A DNA stretch of 50,929 bases from a virus, in IMG/VR virus record IMGVR_UViG_3300044655_001044, positions 1 to 50,929 of that record, one strand, 5' to 3'. The notes below the pieces were generated by a model that did no database searches, had not been told where the DNA came from, and saw nothing but the letters and a program-made list of their open reading frames with translations. This document shows positions 1,774 to 25,529 of this stretch, one piece after another. The stretch's first letter is position 1. Each line of letters opens with the position of its first letter. The position numbers and the translations under genes are program-made.

Positions 1774-3006
1774 ATGAGCGAAAAATCTATTTTAGAACAA
1801 GCGTTACTTCAAGTGCAAAACCTTGAAGAAGCTGTTAAGCAAAATGCAAAAGGTATACTTGCTTCTACAATGAAACAAGAACTAAGCGACTTGCTTAAAG
1901 AATCGTTAGAAGAAGAGGAGAAGTTAGATCCAATGGGTGAACAACCTGAAGACGAAACTAAACCTGACGAAGAGGAAGATGATGTAACAACAGATGATGA
2001 AGCTGACACCGATGGTGAAGATGCTGACACTGATGTTGAAGATGCTGACACAGACCTCGATAATGAACCAAGTAAAGGAATCGATGACTTAGATTCTGAA
2101 GCTGGTGATGATACCGATACATCTATGGATGATTTAGGTACTGAACCATCTCCAGAAGAAGGTATGGATGACGAAGACGTTATGGACATGACAGGAGCTT
2201 CAGATGATGAGGTTCTTAAAGTTTTCAAGGCTATGAAACCAGAAGATGGTATCGTAGTTAAGAAAGATGGTAATAACGTTGAATTTGCTGACGGTCAAGA
2301 TGAGTACATCATCAAACTTGATAGTGAGGAAACTCCTGATGTTGATACAGATATGGACACAGATTTAGATACTGATATGGGTTCTGAAATGGACACAGAT
2401 TTCGGTGCTGAAACTGACGAAACTTCTGATGATGCAGAAATGGATGAAACTTTATATGAAATTGAGTTAGGTGAAGACGAAGATGAAGTTAAGGAAGTAG
2501 AAGCTTCTGAAGGTGAAGCTAAAGAAGTTGAAGTTGGTGAAGCAGCAAGAACATTGGGTAACGATGTTAGAAAGCCAGCTGACCAAGGTAAAAAATATAA
2601 AGCGGGTCGTCATGAAATGAATGAAGAAGTTGAAAAGTTAAAGAAACAAAATTCTGAGTACAAGAAGGCTTTAATTCTTTTCAAAGACAAGCTTAATGAA
2701 GTTGCAGTATTCAACGCAAACTTAGCTTACGCTACTCGTTTATTCACTGAACATTCTACAACAAAACAAGAGAAATTGAATATTTTAAAGAGATTTGATT
2801 CTATTTCTTCTATGAATGAAGCTAAAACTTTATTCGCAACAATAAAAACTGAATTAGGTACTAAAACAACTGTAACTGAATCAGTGGCTGAAAAAATCAC
2901 TAACATGCCATCAACATCTACTTCTACTGAGGTTTTAGCTGAGTCAAAAGCTTACGAAAATCCACAGTTCAAAAGAATGAAAGATTTGATGACAAAAATA
3001 AAATAA
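1774..3006 (+). CDS. gp22: Prohead core scaffold, gp22-like
   Basis: A 410-residue, very acidic protein between protease and capsid genes. Residues about 45-150 and 185-230 are low-complexity Asp/Glu/Thr runs with repeated DADTD, DTDLD and DTDMD units. About 275-320 is a basic/acidic helical segment (EEVEKLKKQNSEYKKAL) typical of scaffold coiled coils, and the C-terminus ends ENPQFKRMKDLMTKIK. Scaffold proteins of T4-like phages form the internal core on which gp23 assembles and are then digested by gp21. Several I/L-x-E tripeptides, such as ILE in the first 10 residues, fit gp21 cleavage. It is longer than T4 gp22 (269) because of the acidic repeats. Starts and ends support a single intact frame. 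Confidence 0.88.
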   Translation: MSEKSILEQALLQVQNLEEAVKQNAKGILASTMKQELSDLLKESLEEEEKLDPMGEQPEDETKPDEEEDDVTTDDEADTDGEDADTDVEDADTDLDNEPSKGIDDLDSEAGDDTDTSMDDLGTEPSPEEGMDDEDVMDMTGASDDEVLKVFKAMKPEDGIVVKKDGNNVEFADGQDEYIIKLDSEETPDVDTDMDTDLDTDMGSEMDTDFGAETDETSDDAEMDETLYEIELGEDEDEVKEVEASEGEAKEVEVGEAARTLGNDVRKPADQGKKYKAGRHEMNEEVEKLKKQNSEYKKALILFKDKLNEVAVFNANLAYATRLFTEHSTTKQEKLNILKRFDSISSMNEAKTLFATIKTELGTKTTVTESVAEKITNMPSTSTSTEVLAESKAYENPQFKRMKDLMTKIK

Positions 3007-3033: not shown

Positions 3034-4773
3034 ATGGGAGCATTATTAGAATCAGGTATGGTTGGTAACATCGGATTAAAACATTTACGTGTTATCAAGG
3101 AAGATACCATTAAAAAATGGGACGAATTAGGTTTCTTAGAAAACTTAGAAGGTCACCAAAAAGATAATATCGCGCAATTGTATGAAAACCAAGCGTCATA
3201 TTTGATTAACGAAGCGGCTGTAGCAGATTCTTCAGGTTCTTTTGAAACTGTAGTTTTCCCTATCATCCGTCGTGTATTCTCTAAGTTATTAGCGAATGAC
3301 ATCGTATCAGTACAAGCAATGAACTTACCAATTGGTAAATTGTTCTTCTTCGTACCTAAAATCCAAGAAAGAGATGGTAATGGTCATTACTCTCCTTATG
3401 GATATCCAAATACAACTGATGCTGCAACTGCTGGATACCCTGCAACTGCAAAAAATCTTTACGATCGTTTTTACGAAAGTAGTGACGCAGCAACTGAAGG
3501 TCTTTTTGATTATTCAAAAGGTTCATTCACTGATGTTTCTTTAACTGGTACATCTATTGTAACTTTTGCAAATGGTGTTGAAACTTCTGGTGTAACTATC
3601 AGTACAGGTACCGATGTTTCATCAGTTATCTTAAAGTTAACAGGTTTCTCTGTATTAGGTCAAGGTAAATTAGCTGGTCCAGACGGTAACGAAATGGATA
3701 CAGAAGAGTTTTTAGCTTCATTAACAATCACTGCACCTCGTGCAAATGCGTTAAGTGGTAGAACTTTCTTACCTTTCAACGTTGTAACACAAAAATATGG
3801 TAAAGGTATCGTATCTTACGGAGTAAAAGCTTCAGGTACAAACGGTAACTTATTCCAAGATATTTGCGATGCAGATGGTGCAATTTACTTAAATGTTGAT
3901 TTACAAACTTACAGTTCAACTGCAGGTTTTTCAGATACGGAAATTGTAGTTACAACATTACAAGGTAATGATTTTACAGCAACTTATCGTCAATATGCAT
4001 CTTTAGAATTTGAAGATCAAATTGGTGAGGTTTCTTTTGATTTAGAATCGGTAACAGTTTCTGTAACTGAAAGAAAATTAAGAGCTAGCTGGTCTCCTGA
4101 ATTGGCTCAAGACGTTAGTGCATTCCACAACATCGACGCTGAAGCAGAATTGACAGCTTTATTATCAGAGCAAATTGCTGCTGAAGTTGACCGTGAAATC
4201 TTACGTGATTTACGTAAAGGTGCGGCATGGAAAGCTAAATGGGATTACAATGAGTGGAAATACGGTGGAAACGGTGGTGCAACTTTACAAGGTTACACAC
4301 AAAAAGACTGGAACCAAACTTTAGTTACTAAAGTTAACCAAATTTCAGCTCAAATCCATAAAACAACCTTAAGAGGTGGTGCTAACTGGATTGTAGTTTC
4401 TTCTGAAGTTTCTGCAGTATTTGATGATTTGGAATATTTCCACGTATCAAACGCAGCTCCTGAGCAAGATTCTTACAACATGGGTATTGAGAAAATCGGT
4501 TCTTTGGCAGGTCGCTACCAAGTATACCGTGATCCTTACTTCCCAGCTAACAAAATCTTGATTGGTCATAAAGGAAAATCTTTATTGGATGCAGGTTATG
4601 TATACGCACCATATGTGCCATTACAATTGACTCCAACAATGTACAATCCTTTCACAATGACTCCTATCAAAGGTATCATGACTCGTTACGCAAAGAAAAT
4701 GGTGAACAACCGTTACTTTGGTATCATCGATGTACAAGGTATCACAACATTTGATATGAATACATTAAGATAA
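3034..4773 (+). CDS. gp23: Major capsid protein, gp23-like
   Basis: A 579-residue HK97-fold capsid protein. The core aligns with T4 gp23: RKLRASWSPELAQDVSAFHNID corresponds to the T4 segment RQLKASYSIELAQDLRAVHGMD, followed by AEAELTALLSEQI. The precursor cleavage site is visible as INE|A at residues 58-61 (YLINEAAVADSSG), matching T4 FLTE|A after residue 65, so the first 60 residues are a removable peptide. It is longer than T4 gp23 (521), mostly through a beta-rich insertion around 145-290. Codon use is strikingly more C-ending than in neighbours (for example ATC, TAC, TTC, CGT), as expected for the most highly expressed gene. It starts at ATG 3034 after an A-rich leader without a Shine-Dalgarno sequence and is closed by a strong terminator. 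Confidence 0.95.
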   Translation: MGALLESGMVGNIGLKHLRVIKEDTIKKWDELGFLENLEGHQKDNIAQLYENQASYLINEAAVADSSGSFETVVFPIIRRVFSKLLANDIVSVQAMNLPIGKLFFFVPKIQERDGNGHYSPYGYPNTTDAATAGYPATAKNLYDRFYESSDAATEGLFDYSKGSFTDVSLTGTSIVTFANGVETSGVTISTGTDVSSVILKLTGFSVLGQGKLAGPDGNEMDTEEFLASLTITAPRANALSGRTFLPFNVVTQKYGKGIVSYGVKASGTNGNLFQDICDADGAIYLNVDLQTYSSTAGFSDTEIVVTTLQGNDFTATYRQYASLEFEDQIGEVSFDLESVTVSVTERKLRASWSPELAQDVSAFHNIDAEAELTALLSEQIAAEVDREILRDLRKGAAWKAKWDYNEWKYGGNGGATLQGYTQKDWNQTLVTKVNQISAQIHKTTLRGGANWIVVSSEVSAVFDDLEYFHVSNAAPEQDSYNMGIEKIGSLAGRYQVYRDPYFPANKILIGHKGKSLLDAGYVYAPYVPLQLTPTMYNPFTMTPIKGIMTRYAKKMVNNRYFGIIDVQGITTFDMNTLR

Positions 4774-4862: not shown

Positions 4863-5189
4863 ATGAACAAAAGAATCGCAAAATTACAAAATATAATGGA
4901 AGCTAACCAAAGGTTAAATAAATCATTATTAAAAGAACAAAATACACATCAACCAGCAAACTTTACCACAGGTCAAGTGGTAAATGCTAAAAGAGACGTT
5001 GATGGTCAAATGTATACAATTAAAATAACTCAAGCCACACCATCATATATGGTTGGTACAATTACCGGACCAGGAAATTATGATAAACAATCATTAAAAA
5101 ACGGAATATCGGGTCTTGAATTATATTCGGTTTCACCCGGAACAATACAAGGTAATTCGACAATGGGTATGTTTACAGTGGTAAAATAA
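4863..5189 (+). CDS. Small probable capsid-associated protein
   Basis: A 108-residue protein that I cannot assign to a family. The N-terminus MNKRIAKLQNIMEANQRL is a basic amphipathic helix containing IME|A at residues 11-14, the I/L-x-E pattern cut by gp21-type proteases; T4 internal proteins carry similar N-terminal targeting peptides. From about 30 on it is beta-rich (GQVVNAKRDVDGQMYTIKI, MVGTITGPG, GLELYSVSPG) and looks like a small compact domain. As a single-gene late unit directly behind the capsid gene, a head decoration or internal head protein is the best guess, but this is inferred from context. Confidence 0.7.
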   Translation: MNKRIAKLQNIMEANQRLNKSLLKEQNTHQPANFTTGQVVNAKRDVDGQMYTIKITQATPSYMVGTITGPGNYDKQSLKNGISGLELYSVSPGTIQGNSTMGMFTVVK

Positions 5190-5563: not shown

Positions 5564-6316
5564 TTACCAAGATTTACAAGCCCAATATCTAGGTTTCCAA
5601 CGAGGACCTGGATTGTCACAATTCATACGTGCTCTAAAGTTCTTTCTTCTTGCAGGGTTATTTTTCTTAATAACCATTCTTTTACCTTTCGCAGATTTAC
5701 CGCCAAATCCGAAATTAACCTTAACGACTTTACCTTTATCGTTTTTAACATATACTTTAAACTTCTTAATATCTCCTTGCATGATTTTTCCAAGTTGAAC
5801 TTTACGTCCTTGATATTCGGCTTCATTTAATAAACCACCATTGTATTCAAAATTGGTATTTTCAACAGAACCATCCTCATCTTCGTATATTAACACAGTA
5901 GTGTCTTCGTTATATTCAAAAAGCCTTTCAAATTGTTCTTCAGATATTTGAATTATTGTTCTTTTTTCCATACTCTCATCAAATTTAGTCATTGTTGGTT
6001 TATTACCCTTACCCACTTTTGGGTCTTTTTTTTCTGCTCTTCTTTTTTGTGATGTCATTGCTTTCTTATCTTTTTTACTGTAAGATGAAGCAACTTTTGG
6101 AGTTTCATTAGACACCTTTTTAGAAGGTCTACATTTTGGATATGATTTGCCGTCAGCATCTTTTCTACCACAAGGAGGGTGTTTACCATCTACCTTTTTA
6201 CTAACATCTACCCACTTTTCTTTAAACCATCTTGCAAGGTCTTCTCTTAAAACCTCGCCTGATTTAATACATTCGTTTATATACTCTTTATCTTCCTTTG
6301 AAACAATGATTTTCAT
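5564..6316 (-). CDS. Tagged virion protein of two joined modules
   Basis: A 250-residue basic protein that looks like two virion proteins joined. Module 1: tag MKIIVSKEDKEYI, then about 29-106 with WFKEKWVDVSKKVDGKHPPC, YPKCRPSKKVS and SQKRRAEKKDP, a conserved basic, Cys-containing domain known from several marine and T4-like phages. Module 2: a second tag at 116-134 (MEKRTIIQISEEQFERLF), then GLLNE|AEYQGRKVQLGKI at 161-178 and a C-terminal domain (KFKVYVKND, KVVKVNFGFGG, PARRKNFRARMNC, YWACKSW). ISE and LNE|A fit prohead-protease sites, LNE|A being like the capsid site INE|A. Release of the C-terminal domain in the capsid is inference. It is the last gene of a tightly packed operon. Confidence 0.8.
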   Translation of the reverse strand: MKIIVSKEDKEYINECIKSGEVLREDLARWFKEKWVDVSKKVDGKHPPCGRKDADGKSYPKCRPSKKVSNETPKVASSYSKKDKKAMTSQKRRAEKKDPKVGKGNKPTMTKFDESMEKRTIIQISEEQFERLFEYNEDTTVLIYEDEDGSVENTNFEYNGGLLNEAEYQGRKVQLGKIMQGDIKKFKVYVKNDKGKVVKVNFGFGGKSAKGKRMVIKKNNPARRKNFRARMNCDNPGPRWKPRYWACKSW

Positions 6317-6317
6317 G

Positions 6318-6596
6318 TTATTTAATTTTATTTACCTCATTAACAAATTTATGACACTTATCGGATACCTTACCCTTATCGTGGTCTGTAATAGATAACT
6401 TCACATTATCGTAATGAACTGTCATATCAGGGTGATGATTCTGTTTGTTAGCAATTTTCATCACCTCATTAGTAAATGACATAACTTCCTTATAATCTTT
6501 AAAATAAAATGTTTTAATTAATTTACCGTTTGTTTCCACCCAATCATTAATATTCATAATTTTATTTTTTTGGTCTTCGGTTATTATTATTCTCAT
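6318..6596 (-). CDS. Pterin-4a-carbinolamine dehydratase with N-terminal tag
   Basis: A 92-residue protein. Residues about 16-92 match pterin-4a-carbinolamine dehydratase (PCD/DCoH), which dehydrates 4a-hydroxy-tetrahydropterin during recycling of the cofactor of aromatic amino acid hydroxylases. The active-site signature is visible: NHHP, then Tyr six residues later (DMTVHY), then nine residues to His (TDHDKG), followed by VSDKCHKFVNEV. The usual Glu four before the first His is Asn here (ANKQNHHP), and THD is replaced by TDHD, so activity is uncertain. The first residues, MRIIITEDQKNKI, are not part of PCD but are the tag shared with neighbouring proteins and contain ITE|D. The gene lies 1 nt from each neighbour, so co-expression is certain if the operon is transcribed. 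Confidence 0.85.
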   Translation of the reverse strand: MRIIITEDQKNKIMNINDWVETNGKLIKTFYFKDYKEVMSFTNEVMKIANKQNHHPDMTVHYDNVKLSITDHDKGKVSDKCHKFVNEVNKIK

Positions 6597-6597
6597 A

Positions 6598-7359
6598 TTA
6601 TAATTTAGTGTCTTTAACGAATTTTTTGTGAGAATCTTTATATGATTTTAATGATTCATCATTAATATCTTTAGAATATTGCCAATTCCAATATAAATCA
6701 TCATTTGTTTTGAAACCATAAAATTCATGAACTTTCTTTTGTAAATCATTAACATTTACACCGTTAAAATTTTGACCCGTACATATAAAACCAGTTTCAA
6801 TATCTTTAACTAAATTAGATTCACCTAACGCTGTGTGTCTATTTTCTATCCAAGTTAGACGTTCGATTAGATTTTGATAAAACATATTTGTTTGTCCCCA
6901 TCTAACGGAACTTAGAAATACCACAGCATCTGATTCAAATAGTTCTTTACTTATTTTCCAAAGTTCATCTTTAGGGTTGTTAACACTGGCCCAACATCTA
7001 TGGTGACCGGTTGGATTTTTATCTTTATCCTTAAGTTTTGATTTTAATAAACCACAACTATTACCGTCTTTTCTTGATACGTTACCCTCACAAGGAACAA
7101 TATTTAATTCTGAAACGTCTATCAATGTTGATTTATCACCCAATTCATCGTTAAGATACATCGCAATCATTTTAGATTTTGGTATATCAATATCATTTTT
7201 GTCCCAATTATGTCTATTAGAACAACTTAATAATAAAACTTTTTTCTTCTTTTTAAGAACATCCAATGTTTTCTTTAAAGATTTCCAAGCATCAGATTGT
7301 ACCATCTCCTCAGAAATCATCATTTGTTTAATCCTTTGTATATTCTCTTCTAAATTCAT
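6598..7359 (-). CDS. Flavodoxin-like NAD(P)H-dependent oxidoreductase with N-terminal tag
   Basis: A 253-residue protein. From residue 38 (KVLLLSCSNR) it follows the flavodoxin-like fold of NADPH-dependent FMN reductases and iron-sulfur flavoproteins: beta strand and phosphate loop, a Cys-containing segment (ELNIVPCEGNVS, CGLLKSK, HHRCW), then ELFESDAVVFLSSVRWGQ at about 141-158 and NLIERLTWIENRHTALGE, which would bind flavin. The Cys spacing is not a clear cluster motif, so an Fe-S centre is only possible. The first 20 residues, MNLEENIQRIKQMMISEE, are extra and combine R-I-K-x-M-M with ISE, both recurring in virion-type proteins here. Redox cargo packaged in the particle is a hypothesis. 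It abuts the next gene upstream without a gap. Confidence 0.8.
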   Translation of the reverse strand: MNLEENIQRIKQMMISEEMVQSDAWKSLKKTLDVLKKKKKVLLLSCSNRHNWDKNDIDIPKSKMIAMYLNDELGDKSTLIDVSELNIVPCEGNVSRKDGNSCGLLKSKLKDKDKNPTGHHRCWASVNNPKDELWKISKELFESDAVVFLSSVRWGQTNMFYQNLIERLTWIENRHTALGESNLVKDIETGFICTGQNFNGVNVNDLQKKVHEFYGFKTNDDLYWNWQYSKDINDESLKSYKDSHKKFVKDTKL

Positions 7360-8016
7360 TTATTTACATTTTCTCCAACCACCACCTTTTGCTTTATAAT
7401 CTTTCGCTGCGAATCCATTTGCGTAAGCTGAAGGGTATACGTCAAATTTAGATTTAGCTTTAGCCTTAGATGCTGCCCATTTTGCAGGGTCTGTTGGGCA
7501 GTTTTTACTTTCGTCTATTGCCATTGCTTCATACATCTCCCTTTCTGACACATTTTTAGGTTCAACACCTTTTTTCTTCATATTGATTGCAATTGCGGCT
7601 TGTTGTGCAGGACTACTCGCTTCATTTACAGGAACACAGTTTGGAACTTTTTTACCGTTCTTCATCTTAGAACCAACTTGTTTGTAACCGTCCCAACATT
7701 TTTCGTCAAGTTGTCCTTCTTCATTCATACTAAACTGATCCATATCAGCAGTTACATCTTGACTATCTTTACGTTTTGTTTCGTTCATAAAGAAATCAAA
7801 AACTTGATCCATATTGTTTTTAGCTTCAGATACATGATCATCTGCCCAATCGTGACCATTTTTAATAATTTGGTCCAATTCTTGGGGATTCATTTTCATT
7901 AACATTTCACATTGTCTGTGAATTTGTTGTAAATTACCGAAAAACATATAGTTTTCAGTTGTTTGACTTTCAATTATTTTCTTTAATTGATCTTCGCTAA
8001 TTATAATTTTCTTCAT
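7360..8016 (-). CDS. Tagged multi-domain virion protein, probable polyprotein
   Basis: A 218-residue protein, taken from ATG 8016 because a late-type octamer lies at 8020-8027, inside any longer frame. It begins with the tag MKKIIISEDQLKKIIES, followed by a helical region (20-80). Three short conserved phage domains follow, each directly after an I/L/V-x-E tripeptide: LDE|K (103-106) before CWDGYKQVGSKMKNGKKVPN; VNE|A (130-133) before SSPAQQAAIAINMKKKG; IDE|S (167-170) before NCPTDPAKW and PSAYANGFAAKDYKAKGGGW. The sites match the specificity of T4 gp21, so cutting into small basic pieces inside the head is plausible but untested. It is the first gene of the operon 8016-5564. Confidence 0.8.
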   Translation of the reverse strand: MKKIIISEDQLKKIIESQTTENYMFFGNLQQIHRQCEMLMKMNPQELDQIIKNGHDWADDHVSEAKNNMDQVFDFFMNETKRKDSQDVTADMDQFSMNEEGQLDEKCWDGYKQVGSKMKNGKKVPNCVPVNEASSPAQQAAIAINMKKKGVEPKNVSEREMYEAMAIDESKNCPTDPAKWAASKAKAKSKFDVYPSAYANGFAAKDYKAKGGGWRKCK

Positions 8017-13603: not shown

Positions 13604-14302
13604 TTATTCTAAAAATCCAACCAAAATACCGTCATACATCTTTTTAAAACGTTTTAGGGATACTCTAATCTCTTTTGTGGATAATGAGGTCATTTCTCGT
13701 AATGAGAGTAAGATAAGGTTCTTATTGAATTTATTACCATCCCCAACTTGGAATATTTTATCAAAATTGCTAAAAATCTCTAACAAGGCATATCCCAATT
13801 TTTGTTCGTTTTCCGTTAGGTTTTCCTTCTCAATAAAGTTTTCTAAAGAAATGGTTAATTTAATTATAACACTTTGATAATCAATAATATGTTCATCAAT
13901 AACATAAGACAAATCTTTTCTATCTTCAATGTCAGATGATATGTCATCATAAGATACTTGTCTATTCTGTTCTTTAGTGTCTTTCTGTATTGCTCCCATA
14001 AGGTAGTTTTTACAGATAGTTCCAAAGTATGAATACGCTTTAGTGTTCTTTGTGTGGTCAAATTTATTAATTTTGGTGATTAAAAAAGACATAGTGTCGG
14101 TGTGAATTTCTTCAAATTCCATATCCTTCCTATATAATTTATATCTTCTAATAATACTTTCAACCATAATAACTAATGGTTCTCTTAAAAACTCATTGAA
14201 TATTTTGTTTCTTTCGTCTTCGTCAGTACTCTCTAGGTAATTAACGACGGCTTTTTCTTGATCCTCACCAAAGTATATTTTTTGGGTTCGTGGTCTCGGC
14301 AT
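13604..14302 (-). CDS. gp55: Late transcription sigma factor, gp55-like
   Basis: A 232-residue protein with a recognisable sigma region 2 at about 75-115: INKFDHTKNTKAYSYFGTIC then KNYLMGAIQKDTKEQNRQVS. This parallels T4 gp55 ([22 protein letters not shown]). gp55 directs host RNA polymerase to phage late promoters. The acidic stretch after it (DDISSDIEDRKDL) also resembles gp55. The C-terminal third is helical, ends KKMYDGILVGFLE, and may hold the clamp-binding part; T4 gp55 has a hydrophobic-acidic end for this, which is not obvious here. The protein is longer than T4 gp55 (185). It is the obvious partner for the TATTTATA/T octamers. It follows the glycosyltransferase gene directly (its start at 14302 abuts 14303). 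Confidence 0.8.
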   Translation of the reverse strand: MPRPRTQKIYFGEDQEKAVVNYLESTDEDERNKIFNEFLREPLVIMVESIIRRYKLYRKDMEFEEIHTDTMSFLITKINKFDHTKNTKAYSYFGTICKNYLMGAIQKDTKEQNRQVSYDDISSDIEDRKDLSYVIDEHIIDYQSVIIKLTISLENFIEKENLTENEQKLGYALLEIFSNFDKIFQVGDGNKFNKNLILLSLREMTSLSTKEIRVSLKRFKKMYDGILVGFLE

Positions 14303-20867: not shown

Positions 20868-21698
20868 TTATGAAAACATTAAACGCTTAATGTTTTTAAT
20901 ACTTTCTTGAAGTTTCTTATTTTCATCCTCTTCTTCAGGATTTGCAACAGGTTTTTCTGTTGGTTTTGGTTGAGGTAATTCTTTTTCAACTTCCTTTTTA
21001 AATCTTTCTCTTGTACCTTGACCTGGTTTAGTATTACCACCAACCTCTTTTTGTTTATTAATCCAATCAACTTCTTTAGCTTTATATAGTTCTTTTCCTT
21101 TATCAACCGTATCTTGTGGTGTTGGTTCAGGTTTAGTTTGAGGTTTTGGTTGAGGTAACTCTGTTGTCTTTGGTTCTTGTGATGTTGTAACCTCCGGCTC
21201 TGTTGGTGTTGGTTCCGTAGGTTCAGTTGTAGGAGTAGTTGGTTTAGTAACAATAGGTTTAACAATCCTTGGTTTTTTAACTTCAGGTTTATTTGTCCAA
21301 TCGGAAGTTACATAAGTAACACTCATAGATTTATCGTCACCTTCTTTATAATCGGGTCTTTTTTGGTCAAACTTACTATCACTAACCTTTAAATTACTCA
21401 TACGACCAACCATAAAAGTTCTCCAACCTGTTTTATCAAATCCTTTTTTGGATACTGATGGTGGTTGGACATACGCACGAACAACTAAATTACCTTTTTT
21501 ATTTAAACCTAACGCAACCGCTTCTGCGTCAATTCTATTACCTGGTTTAACACTATTTTTTGCGGGTTTTCTTGGCCCACTATAAAAAAAAGATATCTTA
21601 TTCCTACTTTTGATTGCATCAACAATAGGTTTTGTTTTAGTCGTCTTTAATATATTTTGTTCTTCAATAACATCGAAGAATGTTTGATTAAAATTCAT
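20868..21698 (-). CDS. WYL-like domain protein with Pro/Thr linker and conserved tail
   Basis: A 276-residue protein. Residues about 30-130 follow the phage WYL-like domain pattern: ISFFYSGPRKPAKNSVKPGN, AVALGLNKKGNLVVRAYVQP, GWRTFMVGRMSNLKVSDSKF, RPDYKEGDDKSMSVTYV. Such domains bind ligands or nucleic acid in bacterial regulators; in phage proteins of this kind the role is unknown. A Pro/Thr/Glu linker (about 145-200) follows, then charged helices ending LQESIKNIKRLMFS, matching the R-x-K-x-L-M tail of other proteins here. DVIEEQ near the N-terminus (I-E-E) could be a prohead protease site. Its ATG overlaps the stop of the gene before it by 1 nt. Confidence 0.7.
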   Translation of the reverse strand: MNFNQTFFDVIEEQNILKTTKTKPIVDAIKSRNKISFFYSGPRKPAKNSVKPGNRIDAEAVALGLNKKGNLVVRAYVQPPSVSKKGFDKTGWRTFMVGRMSNLKVSDSKFDQKRPDYKEGDDKSMSVTYVTSDWTNKPEVKKPRIVKPIVTKPTTPTTEPTEPTPTEPEVTTSQEPKTTELPQPKPQTKPEPTPQDTVDKGKELYKAKEVDWINKQKEVGGNTKPGQGTRERFKKEVEKELPQPKPTEKPVANPEEEDENKKLQESIKNIKRLMFS

Positions 21699-22094: not shown

Positions 22095-22589
22095 TTATAA
22101 CATTAATTTTTTTATTCTTTGTAATTGTTCAAACAAACCTGATAATTTAATACTTGATATTGAAGATTTATGTGAATTACTTTTCATCATATTCAAAGGA
22201 GGTAAGAAATCTGGCTTCTTTGAATGTTTTTTCAAATGACTATTTTTTCTTTCCCCTGTTATCCCACCAATATCATCAGCCTGTTTTCTTCCGTCTTTTC
22301 TATTACTCACCATATCTCTTTCACCTTGTAGGTATTGTTTGGACCACATATCCATTAATTCACCACCAGCCAAGTCATACCTAACTCTATCACCAATTTT
22401 ATCAATATTTTGTAAGTCATGTATAATTCTTTTTAACTGTCCATATTTAACTTTTTTATCTATTAAAAGTTTCTTAGCTCTTTGTACACCATGAACATGT
22501 GTTCCGTTAAGACCAACAATTGTGTGGTTAATCTTATCTAAAATGTTCTGCGGTATATCAAATATCCTATGTTTTAAATCCTTATTCAT
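22095..22589 (-). CDS. Unassigned basic protein with conserved tail
   Basis: A 164-residue basic protein. The first 85 residues are helical (QNILDKINHTIVGLNGTHV, AKKLLIDKKVKYGQLKRII). The middle is polar and probably flexible (SNRKDGRKQADD, HLKKHSKKPDF). It ends LFEQLQRIKKLML, again the R-I-K-x-L-M tail. No family is recognised. It overlaps the preceding gene by 8 nt. Its charge and tail suggest a capsid internal or accessory protein (inference). Confidence 0.68.
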   Translation of the reverse strand: MNKDLKHRIFDIPQNILDKINHTIVGLNGTHVHGVQRAKKLLIDKKVKYGQLKRIIHDLQNIDKIGDRVRYDLAGGELMDMWSKQYLQGERDMVSNRKDGRKQADDIGGITGERKNSHLKKHSKKPDFLPPLNMMKSNSHKSSISSIKLSGLFEQLQRIKKLML

Positions 22590-23378: not shown

Positions 23379-23395
23379 TCAAATGTTATGAAAGA

Positions 23396-23403
23396 TATTT
23401 ATA
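23396..23403 (+). promoter_or_regulatory. Late-type promoter, rightward
   Basis: TATTTATA ends 5 nt before ATG 23409. An in-frame ATG at 23388 lies upstream of the octamer and would be excluded from the transcript, so 23409 is the start. Confidence 0.6.
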
Positions 23404-23408
23404 TAAAC

Positions 23409-25529
23409 ATGGCTAATCAGAATATTTTAAGATTTTACGGTTCCAAACTCGATTTAAAGGTAGATTATTCCGAATTATATGACTATGAACTATCAAAAGT
23501 TCAAATGGATTATAATGAAGAGGTCTTAGATTTCGACACGGAAATAACATATACAGGACTAACTATCGATTCTTCTTGTTTAACGGGACTAACTTCACCT
23601 TGGGAAGTTGCGGTGAATACTCGTTATACGGGAGACACCTGTGATTTTACTGTTCGTAGAAGAACAGAGAAGGGTTGGACATTAGATTTGGTTTTTGATA
23701 GATTAGTAACTGGAACGACATTTTACTATTTAGGAATTAAAGATGATTTGGCTAATGGGAATTACGCGGATAATAATTTAACATTCTCATTTACCAATAA
23801 TAAAAAGATAAAATGGGAGTCATTTCATTATTCGGGATTATGTAATCCAGATAGTGGGTACACGGAGTCATATTACACAATAACAGGTAATACTCCTGAA
23901 TTATGTGCAAATGGAATATATGACGATTTTAATATTACAATCACATTTGATAGATACACATATCTTTATGGTTGTGAGATTGAGAATGAGGGGGGATTTA
24001 ATGATTTAATATTAGGTCCACACGCAGTTAGTTATACTGATGAATTATGGGCTCCGACAACTGGTGATACTGGTAGTTTCTTTTCGGGTTCATTTATAGG
24101 TCACTCAACACAAATCACCACAGGTTATACAATGGTTACCGGATCATTAAATTGGATTACGGGGGATACTGAATATAGTTATGTGGAAGAATTAAATAAA
24201 AAATGGGCAGGAGAAAAACAAAAAAGATTAGGAACACTTAAAATTTATCATAACGGTAAAAGAATATATAAATTAGAAAACTTTGAGGAAATAATTCCAT
24301 CATTAAGGTCTTCTGAAAATGAAATCGTACAAATTTTTGGTAATAATTCACTTAATGGTGTTTTAAAACAAGTTAAGTATTTTGAAGAACCGTTGGATTT
24401 TGTTCATGTTAATCATCATTATTTAACATCAATTAAACCAAATTATTCAATATATGGTTGTTCAGATGTTTTACCAAGCCCAACACCAACACCAACTAAC
24501 ACACCAACACCTACTAATACTGTTACTCCTACTAATACTGTTACACCAACTAATACATCAACCAATACACCAACACCAAGTATTACACCTACAAACACTC
24601 CTACTAACACAATTACTTCGACACCAACAAATACCGTTACTCCAACGCAAACGCCGACTAATACACCGACTAACACACCAACACCAACAGGAAGTGAAAC
24701 CCCAACACCTACTCCAACTAACACACCAACTCCTACGGTTACTGAAACACCTACGCAAACTCCAACGAATACACCCACTAATACCCCCACTAATACGGTC
24801 ACACCTACCAATTCAGTTACACCCACACCAAGTGTCGCCGCAAGTGGGATAACTACAAGCAATTTAGTATTACATTACGACCCATCAAACCTTTCTTCAT
24901 ATCCTGGTAGTGGAACAACAATTAATGATTTATCAGGTAATGATTTGAATGGAACAATGAGTAATATAACATATACATCACCATACTTCACATACAATGG
25001 TTCTTCATCACAAATTTCAGTTGCAGATAATGCGGCATTAGAACCGGGAAGTGGTGATTGGACAGTAGAAGTTTGGGTGAATCAATCAGTAGCAGGTAAT
25101 GATGTAGTACTTGGTAAATTTAACGCAGCTGGGTTAACAACAAGTGTGGGTTATAGTGTTAGAACAACTGCTTCAACATTTTATGGACAATATGGTTCGG
25201 GTGCGGGTTCAGGATCAACACTATTTGTTAATAGTACAAACCACACCGCAACACTTAATACATGGTATCAAATAGTTTATGTATTTACTAATGTTGCGGC
25301 CAATACATTTCAAACATTTGTTAATGGTGTTAGTATCGGTACTGTAAATCACAGTTTAGCAAGTATATTAAACACTACTACAAACTTATACATTGGTTCA
25401 TATAATAATGGTGAATACCCACAATACTTTGATGGTAAGATTGGTATAACCCGTTTATATAGTAGTGCATTAACATCAACTGAAGTTTTGAATAACTATA
25501 ACGCAGACAAATCTAAATACGGTTTATAA
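23409..25529 (+). CDS. Host-binding adhesin with TPT-rich stalk and LamG domain
   Basis: A 706-residue tail protein. Residues 1-350 are beta-rich and unassigned, perhaps an attachment part to the tail. About 355-476 is a stalk of Thr-Pro repeats (TPTNTPT, TVTPTN). About 480-706 is a laminin G/concanavalin-like domain: [88 protein letters not shown]. Such domains bind sugars, so this is a likely receptor-binding or capsule-binding fibre. A rigid or glycosylated Thr-rich stalk would present the domain; glycosylation by the phage glycosyltransferases is possible but unproven. No signal peptide is visible. Confidence 0.85.
24472..24837 (+). repeat. Imperfect DNA repeat coding for the TPT stalk
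   Basis: About 366 nt of imperfect 6- and 12-nt units (ACACCA, ACTAAT, CCTACT variants) encode about 122 residues of Thr-Pro-Thr-Asn repeats. Synonymous variation between units argues for old repeats, but the region could still change length by recombination. Confidence 0.85.

Follow-up and report, generated by a model that had tools for sequence, protein, structure and literature searches.

Why should a gene for pterin-4a-carbinolamine dehydratase (PCD) stand among the virion genes of a phage? The question is raised by the window considered here, i.e., the whole analysed stretch of viral DNA of 50,929 nucleotides (IMG/VR record IMGVR_UViG_3300044655_001044, positions 1 to 50,929). Its minus strand encodes a PCD of 92 amino acid residues at exactly 6318-6596, and the plus-strand translation of the same interval is interrupted by stops. 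According to the original prediction, this enzyme is not a usual phage gene, and this holds: a tblastn search of 50,697 phage records gave the sole match MT835479, which was ruled out as a second phage PCD because its neighbouring genes are bacterial. In the open-licence literature, no paper was found that deals with PCD as a phage gene or gives the leader sequence described below.

The sequence and the structural model agree that the product is a genuine member of the PCD family. The Pfam profile Pterin_4a (PF01329) matched the reading frame with an E-value of 4.4e-18 and 65.6 bits against a cut-off of 26. Five NCBIfam models of 4a-hydroxytetrahydrobiopterin dehydratase also matched it, the top score (67.9 bits, NF002017) being below the curated cut-off of 80, and the closest solved PCD by sequence was 1uso (E 1.5e-10). 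The predicted structure (pLDDT 92.6) has the PCD fold, with DCoH 1usm as the top match (Z 13.5, rmsd 0.9 over 75 residues) and 14 entries of PCD/DCoH type heading the fold list (Z 10.9–13.5); the carboxysome protein acRAF (4low, Z 12.5) is also among the top matches. The match to 1usm spans residues 17-92, approximately the core of the protein, so residues 1-16 lie outside the matched fold. The identity proposed earlier was thus borne out by the profile, the solved PCD and the model, and the HHP-x5-Y-x9-H signature, on which it was founded, is present in the frame (HHP at residues 54-56, Y62 and H72). The phage protein has this signature, the fold and the small single-domain size in common with the PCD/DCoH family, and differs from it in C81, which replaces the last Asp of the motif, and in a variable position four residues before the first His (position −4).

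Phage relatives of the protein were found at 33 loci, including 31 IMG/VR loci with 53–100% identity from a first scan and two more, L114 and L115, from a second. In an alignment of 13 phage sequences, H54, H55, P56, D57 and H72 do not vary, and Y62 hardly does; HHP occurs in every close phage relative. Neither of the two outcomes named with the original prediction as telling against it, a model without the PCD fold or a loss of HHP among close relatives, was thus observed. Glu at position −4 and Asp at the last motif position were found in all 30 cellular PCDs of Bacteroidota that were read, about ten of which have a loop longer by one residue. The acidic residue at −4 and the Asp 9–10 residues after the last His, typical of cellular PCDs, are both missing from the window protein, which has Asn and Cys instead. 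The replacement of Glu by Asn was seen correctly, but the loss of activity suggested on its account is not supported: position −4 is N, D or K among the 13 aligned phage PCDs and E in L114 and L115; neither HHP nor the third His varies; and dN is much lower than dS. As a sign of decay, this replacement was ruled out by the same variation. The last Asp of the motif, present in 1uso and 1usm, is replaced by Cys in all the phage PCDs read (the 31 loci, L114 and L115), a change that the original prediction does not mention. Because core dN (about 0.03–0.19) is far below dS (0.4 to saturated) and the set of active-site His is kept, the comparison of sequences indicates that the core is under purifying selection and that the protein is maintained with lineage-specific change. 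The phage PCD fold may have acquired an altered chemistry or another use.

A phylogenetic comparison with PCDs of Bacteroidota placed the phage copies apart: together with sequences from two MAG contigs, L081 (Crocinitomicaceae) and L083, they form a clade at 100/99 on a long stem outside the other bacterial PCDs sampled. Most inner branches of the tree, however, are weak, and the protein is short. A recent gain from a Bacteroidota host was rejected on the grounds of this clade, with the same two reservations. PCD is present in 74 of 99 sampled genomes of Bacteroidota. The PCDs of L081 and L082 (Crocinitomicaceae/Flavobacteriales MAG) have the phage-type Cys; the L081 genome contains one PCD, and phenylalanine hydroxylase (PAH) gave no match in the L081 or L082 genome. 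At the end of the Rhodospirillales MAG contig L083, positions 3959-4222 encode a PCD-like protein with YQP instead of HHP.

In the window, the PCD gene is the third of four tightly packed minus-strand genes extending from 8016 to 5564. The first of them (7360-8016) encodes a protein with the leader MKKIIISEDQLKKIIE and the motifs VYPSAYA and CW.GY...PNCVP and is preceded by TATTTAT at −11; the second (6598-7359) is a putative reductase, and the last (5564-6316) is a DUF5872 (PF19197) protein with a class A-like start, MKIIVSKEDK. Beyond this unit stand plus-strand genes of a prohead core protease of the Peptidase_S77 (T4 gp21) family (1002-1685), probably the leader-cleaving enzyme, of a gp22-like prohead scaffold (1774-3006), so assigned by position and composition with no family match, and of the major capsid protein Gp23 (PF07068; 3034-4773), where LINE/AA in the N-terminal region may be a propeptide cleavage site. 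They are followed by the gene of a small protein with a class D-like leader MNKRIAKLQNIMEANQRLNKSLLKE (4863-5189, plus strand). A relative of S77 and/or Gp23 was found within the fetched DNA of 25 of the 33 PCD loci. The distance from PCD to Gp23 is about 104 kb in genome G012 and about 67 kb in G017, and the PCD of G012 is located inside a run of leader-bearing genes. TATTTAT, which resembles a late promoter element, occurs within 45 nt upstream of 17 of 47 called genes of the window and is overall rarer there than in shuffled sequences (35 vs about 61).

The N-terminal residues preceding the PCD core (6570-6596, minus strand) form a leader, MRIIITEDQ, which was assigned to class A. The proteins of 7360-8016 and 5564-6316 begin similarly, with MKKIIISEDQ and MKIIVSKED, which confirms that PCD carries a tag in common with virion-type proteins. 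In the 13 aligned phage PCDs, I5, T6, E7 and Q9 of the leader are invariant. The consensus M[K/R]xIITExQ stands at the start of at least 90 phage proteins that are dissimilar to one another, and the pattern M-K-x-I-I-T-E-x-Q was found in at least 120 stretches of IMG/VR compared with 3 for a scrambled pattern. Among the matches listed, 153 of 154 open a reading frame of at least 50 amino acids or one running off the record, and the tagged proteins make up 95 clusters of low similarity. When 90 tagged members were aligned, nothing was common to them beyond M1, K2, I4, I5, T6, E7 and Q9, i.e., the residues set by the search pattern. Phage lysozyme, LysM, M23, cell-wall hydrolase, ECF-type sigma factor, DUF5872 and PCD are the Pfam families represented, and a DHH match falls below its cut-off. 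TATTTAT stands within 45 nt upstream of 65 of 146 tagged IMG/VR genes among the matches listed, with 51 occurrences at exactly −11 or −12. In Gp23-related isolates (immuto, Mel-JY01, RM378 and LR756508), no clear class A leader was present in the stretches read, and there was one near match, in immuto.

The leader and the body of these proteins evolve apart, as follows from three cases. The PCD of L115 begins with MNLQENIQRIKDVILMEE, a leader of the class found in the reductase of 6598-7359, and has a CWPGY...PNCV tail; the reductases of G012 and G013 lack the class B leader; and a relative of the 7360-8016 protein in G004 bears MKVIKLKENDLRKYIAKIIKENQ. On this comparison of sequences, the short leader is modular and exchangeable among unrelated phage proteins. 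A part of its likeness in PCDs may be native, because cellular PCDs possess an N-terminal helix of their own, as that of L089, beginning with MKIISENQLSELL of a related look.

The leader invites comparison with the loading of the T4 head, where cleavage by the protease gp21 follows L/I-X-E, and where the internal protein IPIII can be packaged by virtue of its 10 N-terminal residues alone (PMC9026906). As in T4 internal proteins and Alt, short leaders, with I/L-x-E as their possible end, are found here on unrelated proteins, and the window phage, like T4, has a gp21-family protease and Gp23. T4 Alt is packaged in the head and then ejected. Its mature peptide is annotated (X15811) after 6 residues, MELITE/LFDE, and the propeptide MELITE resembles the PCD start MRIIITE/DQ, where ITE (residues 5-7) fits a gp21-type [I/L]-x-E site. 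The window leader differs in sequence from that of IPIII, MKTYQEFIAE, and several leader classes occur here; unlike T4 internal proteins, the candidate cargoes include a PCD and a flavodoxin-fold reductase. Capsid and tail cargo proteins of crassviruses provide another likeness, being stored in the virion, from which they presumably pass into the host, although the head is of another type (PMC10172136).

A site of the form [I/L]xE was counted within 15 residues past the leader core and compared with shuffled sequences. It was present in 91 of 153 class A proteins among the matches listed (shuffled mean 39.9, maximum 56), in 15 of 17 of class B (mean 4.2, maximum 9) and in 37 of 43 of class C (mean 12.5, maximum 20); the five of five in class D (mean 2.0, maximum 5) are too few to weigh, as one shuffle also reached 5. 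The PCD leaders lack this second, downstream site common to most tagged proteins, so ITE would be the only site for trimming. Of the 32 leader-bearing records of at least 60 kb, 10 contain Gp23 and 12 contain S77, while the T4 portal was present in 6 and absent from 12 of the 18 records checked; where Gp23 is missing, the portal was found in two records, both also with S77. The leader's tie to T4-type heads thus appears partial from these gene contents, and records without T4 head genes may be fragments or belong to other phages.

The neighbouring gene 6598-7359 (minus strand), described in the original prediction as a flavin-type oxidoreductase, is supported as such by its model (pLDDT 73), which has a flavodoxin-like NAD(P)H quinone/azo-reductase fold over residues 37-253, with RosB at Z 11.5 and other matches near 11 (range about 10–11.5). 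It has no Pfam or NCBIfam match over the cut-off, the Pfam FMN_red match being weak. From flavodoxin-like reductases it differs in a conserved Cys-bearing insert and in the N-terminal class B leader MNLEENIQRIKQMMISE. Most PCD loci, as well as G012, G013 and G017, contain a relative of this protein. PCD together with a flavin reductase would fit the regeneration of tetrahydropterin. The search for pterin-dependent hydroxylases suggested earlier, run on 17 related records that may be fragments, revealed no PF00351/PAH protein, and dihydrofolate reductase (PF00186) and GTP cyclohydrolase (PF01227) were likewise absent from related records, with the same proviso.

In our opinion, these data are best explained by a phage-lineage PCD whose first 7–16 residues form a modular leader resembling a capsid-targeting signal and which is a head cargo ejected into the host; sequences, the structural model and the analogy with T4 give this explanation about an even chance. 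It brings together the fold, the conserved His set, purifying selection, the leader on unrelated proteins, its exchange and the enrichment of [I/L]xE after leaders; packaging, cleavage, ejection, catalytic activity and a partnership with the reductase are inferred. PCD would most likely be made late, from the unit starting at 8016, and its leader would draw it into the prohead core, with possible trimming after Glu7 by the phage S77 protease. After being packed alongside the DNA, it would be ejected into the host cell and would most likely act there as a small pterin-binding dehydratase on host-supplied pterin species, and the co-packaged flavodoxin-fold reductase would perhaps be its partner. 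A broader proposal, which we regard as tentative, is that environmental T4-like phages use interchangeable leaders, closed by a prohead-protease site, to fill the head with many enzymes and regulators, and that PCD and the reductase are delivered as a pair when infection begins and act on the pterin or quinone redox chemistry of the host.

Several other explanations have to be weighed. An ordinary auxiliary metabolic PCD might work in the infected cell, recycling tetrahydropterin for a host hydroxylase or another pterin-using enzyme, and its N-terminus would then be the first helix of the family, similar to the leader by chance. Cellular PCDs indeed often begin with a short LTxEEI-type helix ahead of a conserved Trp, the enzyme is widespread in Bacteroidota, as noted, and the downstream [I/L]xE is missing from phage PCDs; however, the exact leader is present in none of 30 cellular PCDs of Bacteroidota and in nearly all phage ones, a different leader occupies the same place in L115, and the gene adjoins virion or leader-bearing genes even where it is far from gp23, which makes this explanation rather unlikely. 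The fold might instead be reused without catalysis, serving as a dimeric or tetrameric scaffold or else inhibiting or chaperoning some host protein, and such a protein may still be ejected cargo. There are precedents, as DCoH binds HNF-1 and acRAF serves RuBisCO. Scaffold use is compatible with the invariant change of Asp to Cys combined with the lack of a pterin hydroxylase in the 17 related records, and the free position −4, the long stem of the phage clade, the absence of PAH matches in Crocinitomicaceae-type genomes with Cys-type PCD and the high rank of acRAF among the fold matches also speak for reuse. Pure binding, however, would need neither HHP nor the third His, whose invariance in the aligned phage copies argues for a kept active site, and we consider reuse without catalysis unlikely.

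It is doubtful that the leader is some other N-terminal device, such as a peptide for docking to the tail or baseplate or a translation-start element tied to TATTTAT. Several cell-wall hydrolases, possible tail components, are among the tagged proteins, the spacing of TATTTAT ahead of many tagged genes is exact, and many leader-bearing records are without T4 head genes, but the invariance of I-I-T-E-x-Q at the protein level in PCDs and the excess of [I/L]xE after leaders of classes A–C over shuffled sequences suggest a site for a protease. A PCD-like frame that has decayed or arisen by chance, of which the distant L083 copy without HHP might be reminiscent, is highly improbable in view of purifying selection, the confidence of the fold and the 33 phage relatives.

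Should the leaders prove to be capsid-targeting signals, the sequence alone could suffice to recognise the proteins injected by large uncultured phages, and a testable role could be given to many unannotated genes. If PCD is packaged, it would be a new and unexpected delivered cargo for the T4-type head route and would link head cargo to host pterin chemistry.

Some minor observations concern other genes. The ECF-type sigma factor of L218 (6783-7346) bears a leader, and so does a protein of L150 (3588-4127), where a YHGS stretch recalls ADP-ribosyltransferases by eye and no Pfam match was obtained. In the window, the product of 13604-14302 weakly matches a late sigma transcription factor (phrog_234, E 4.7e-4), a long repeat rich in Pro, Thr and Asn extends over 23388-25529 within a large reading frame, and the C-terminal tails of the proteins of 20868-21698 and 22095-22589, ESIKNIKRLM and EQLQRIKKLML, resemble the class B leader at the opposite end.
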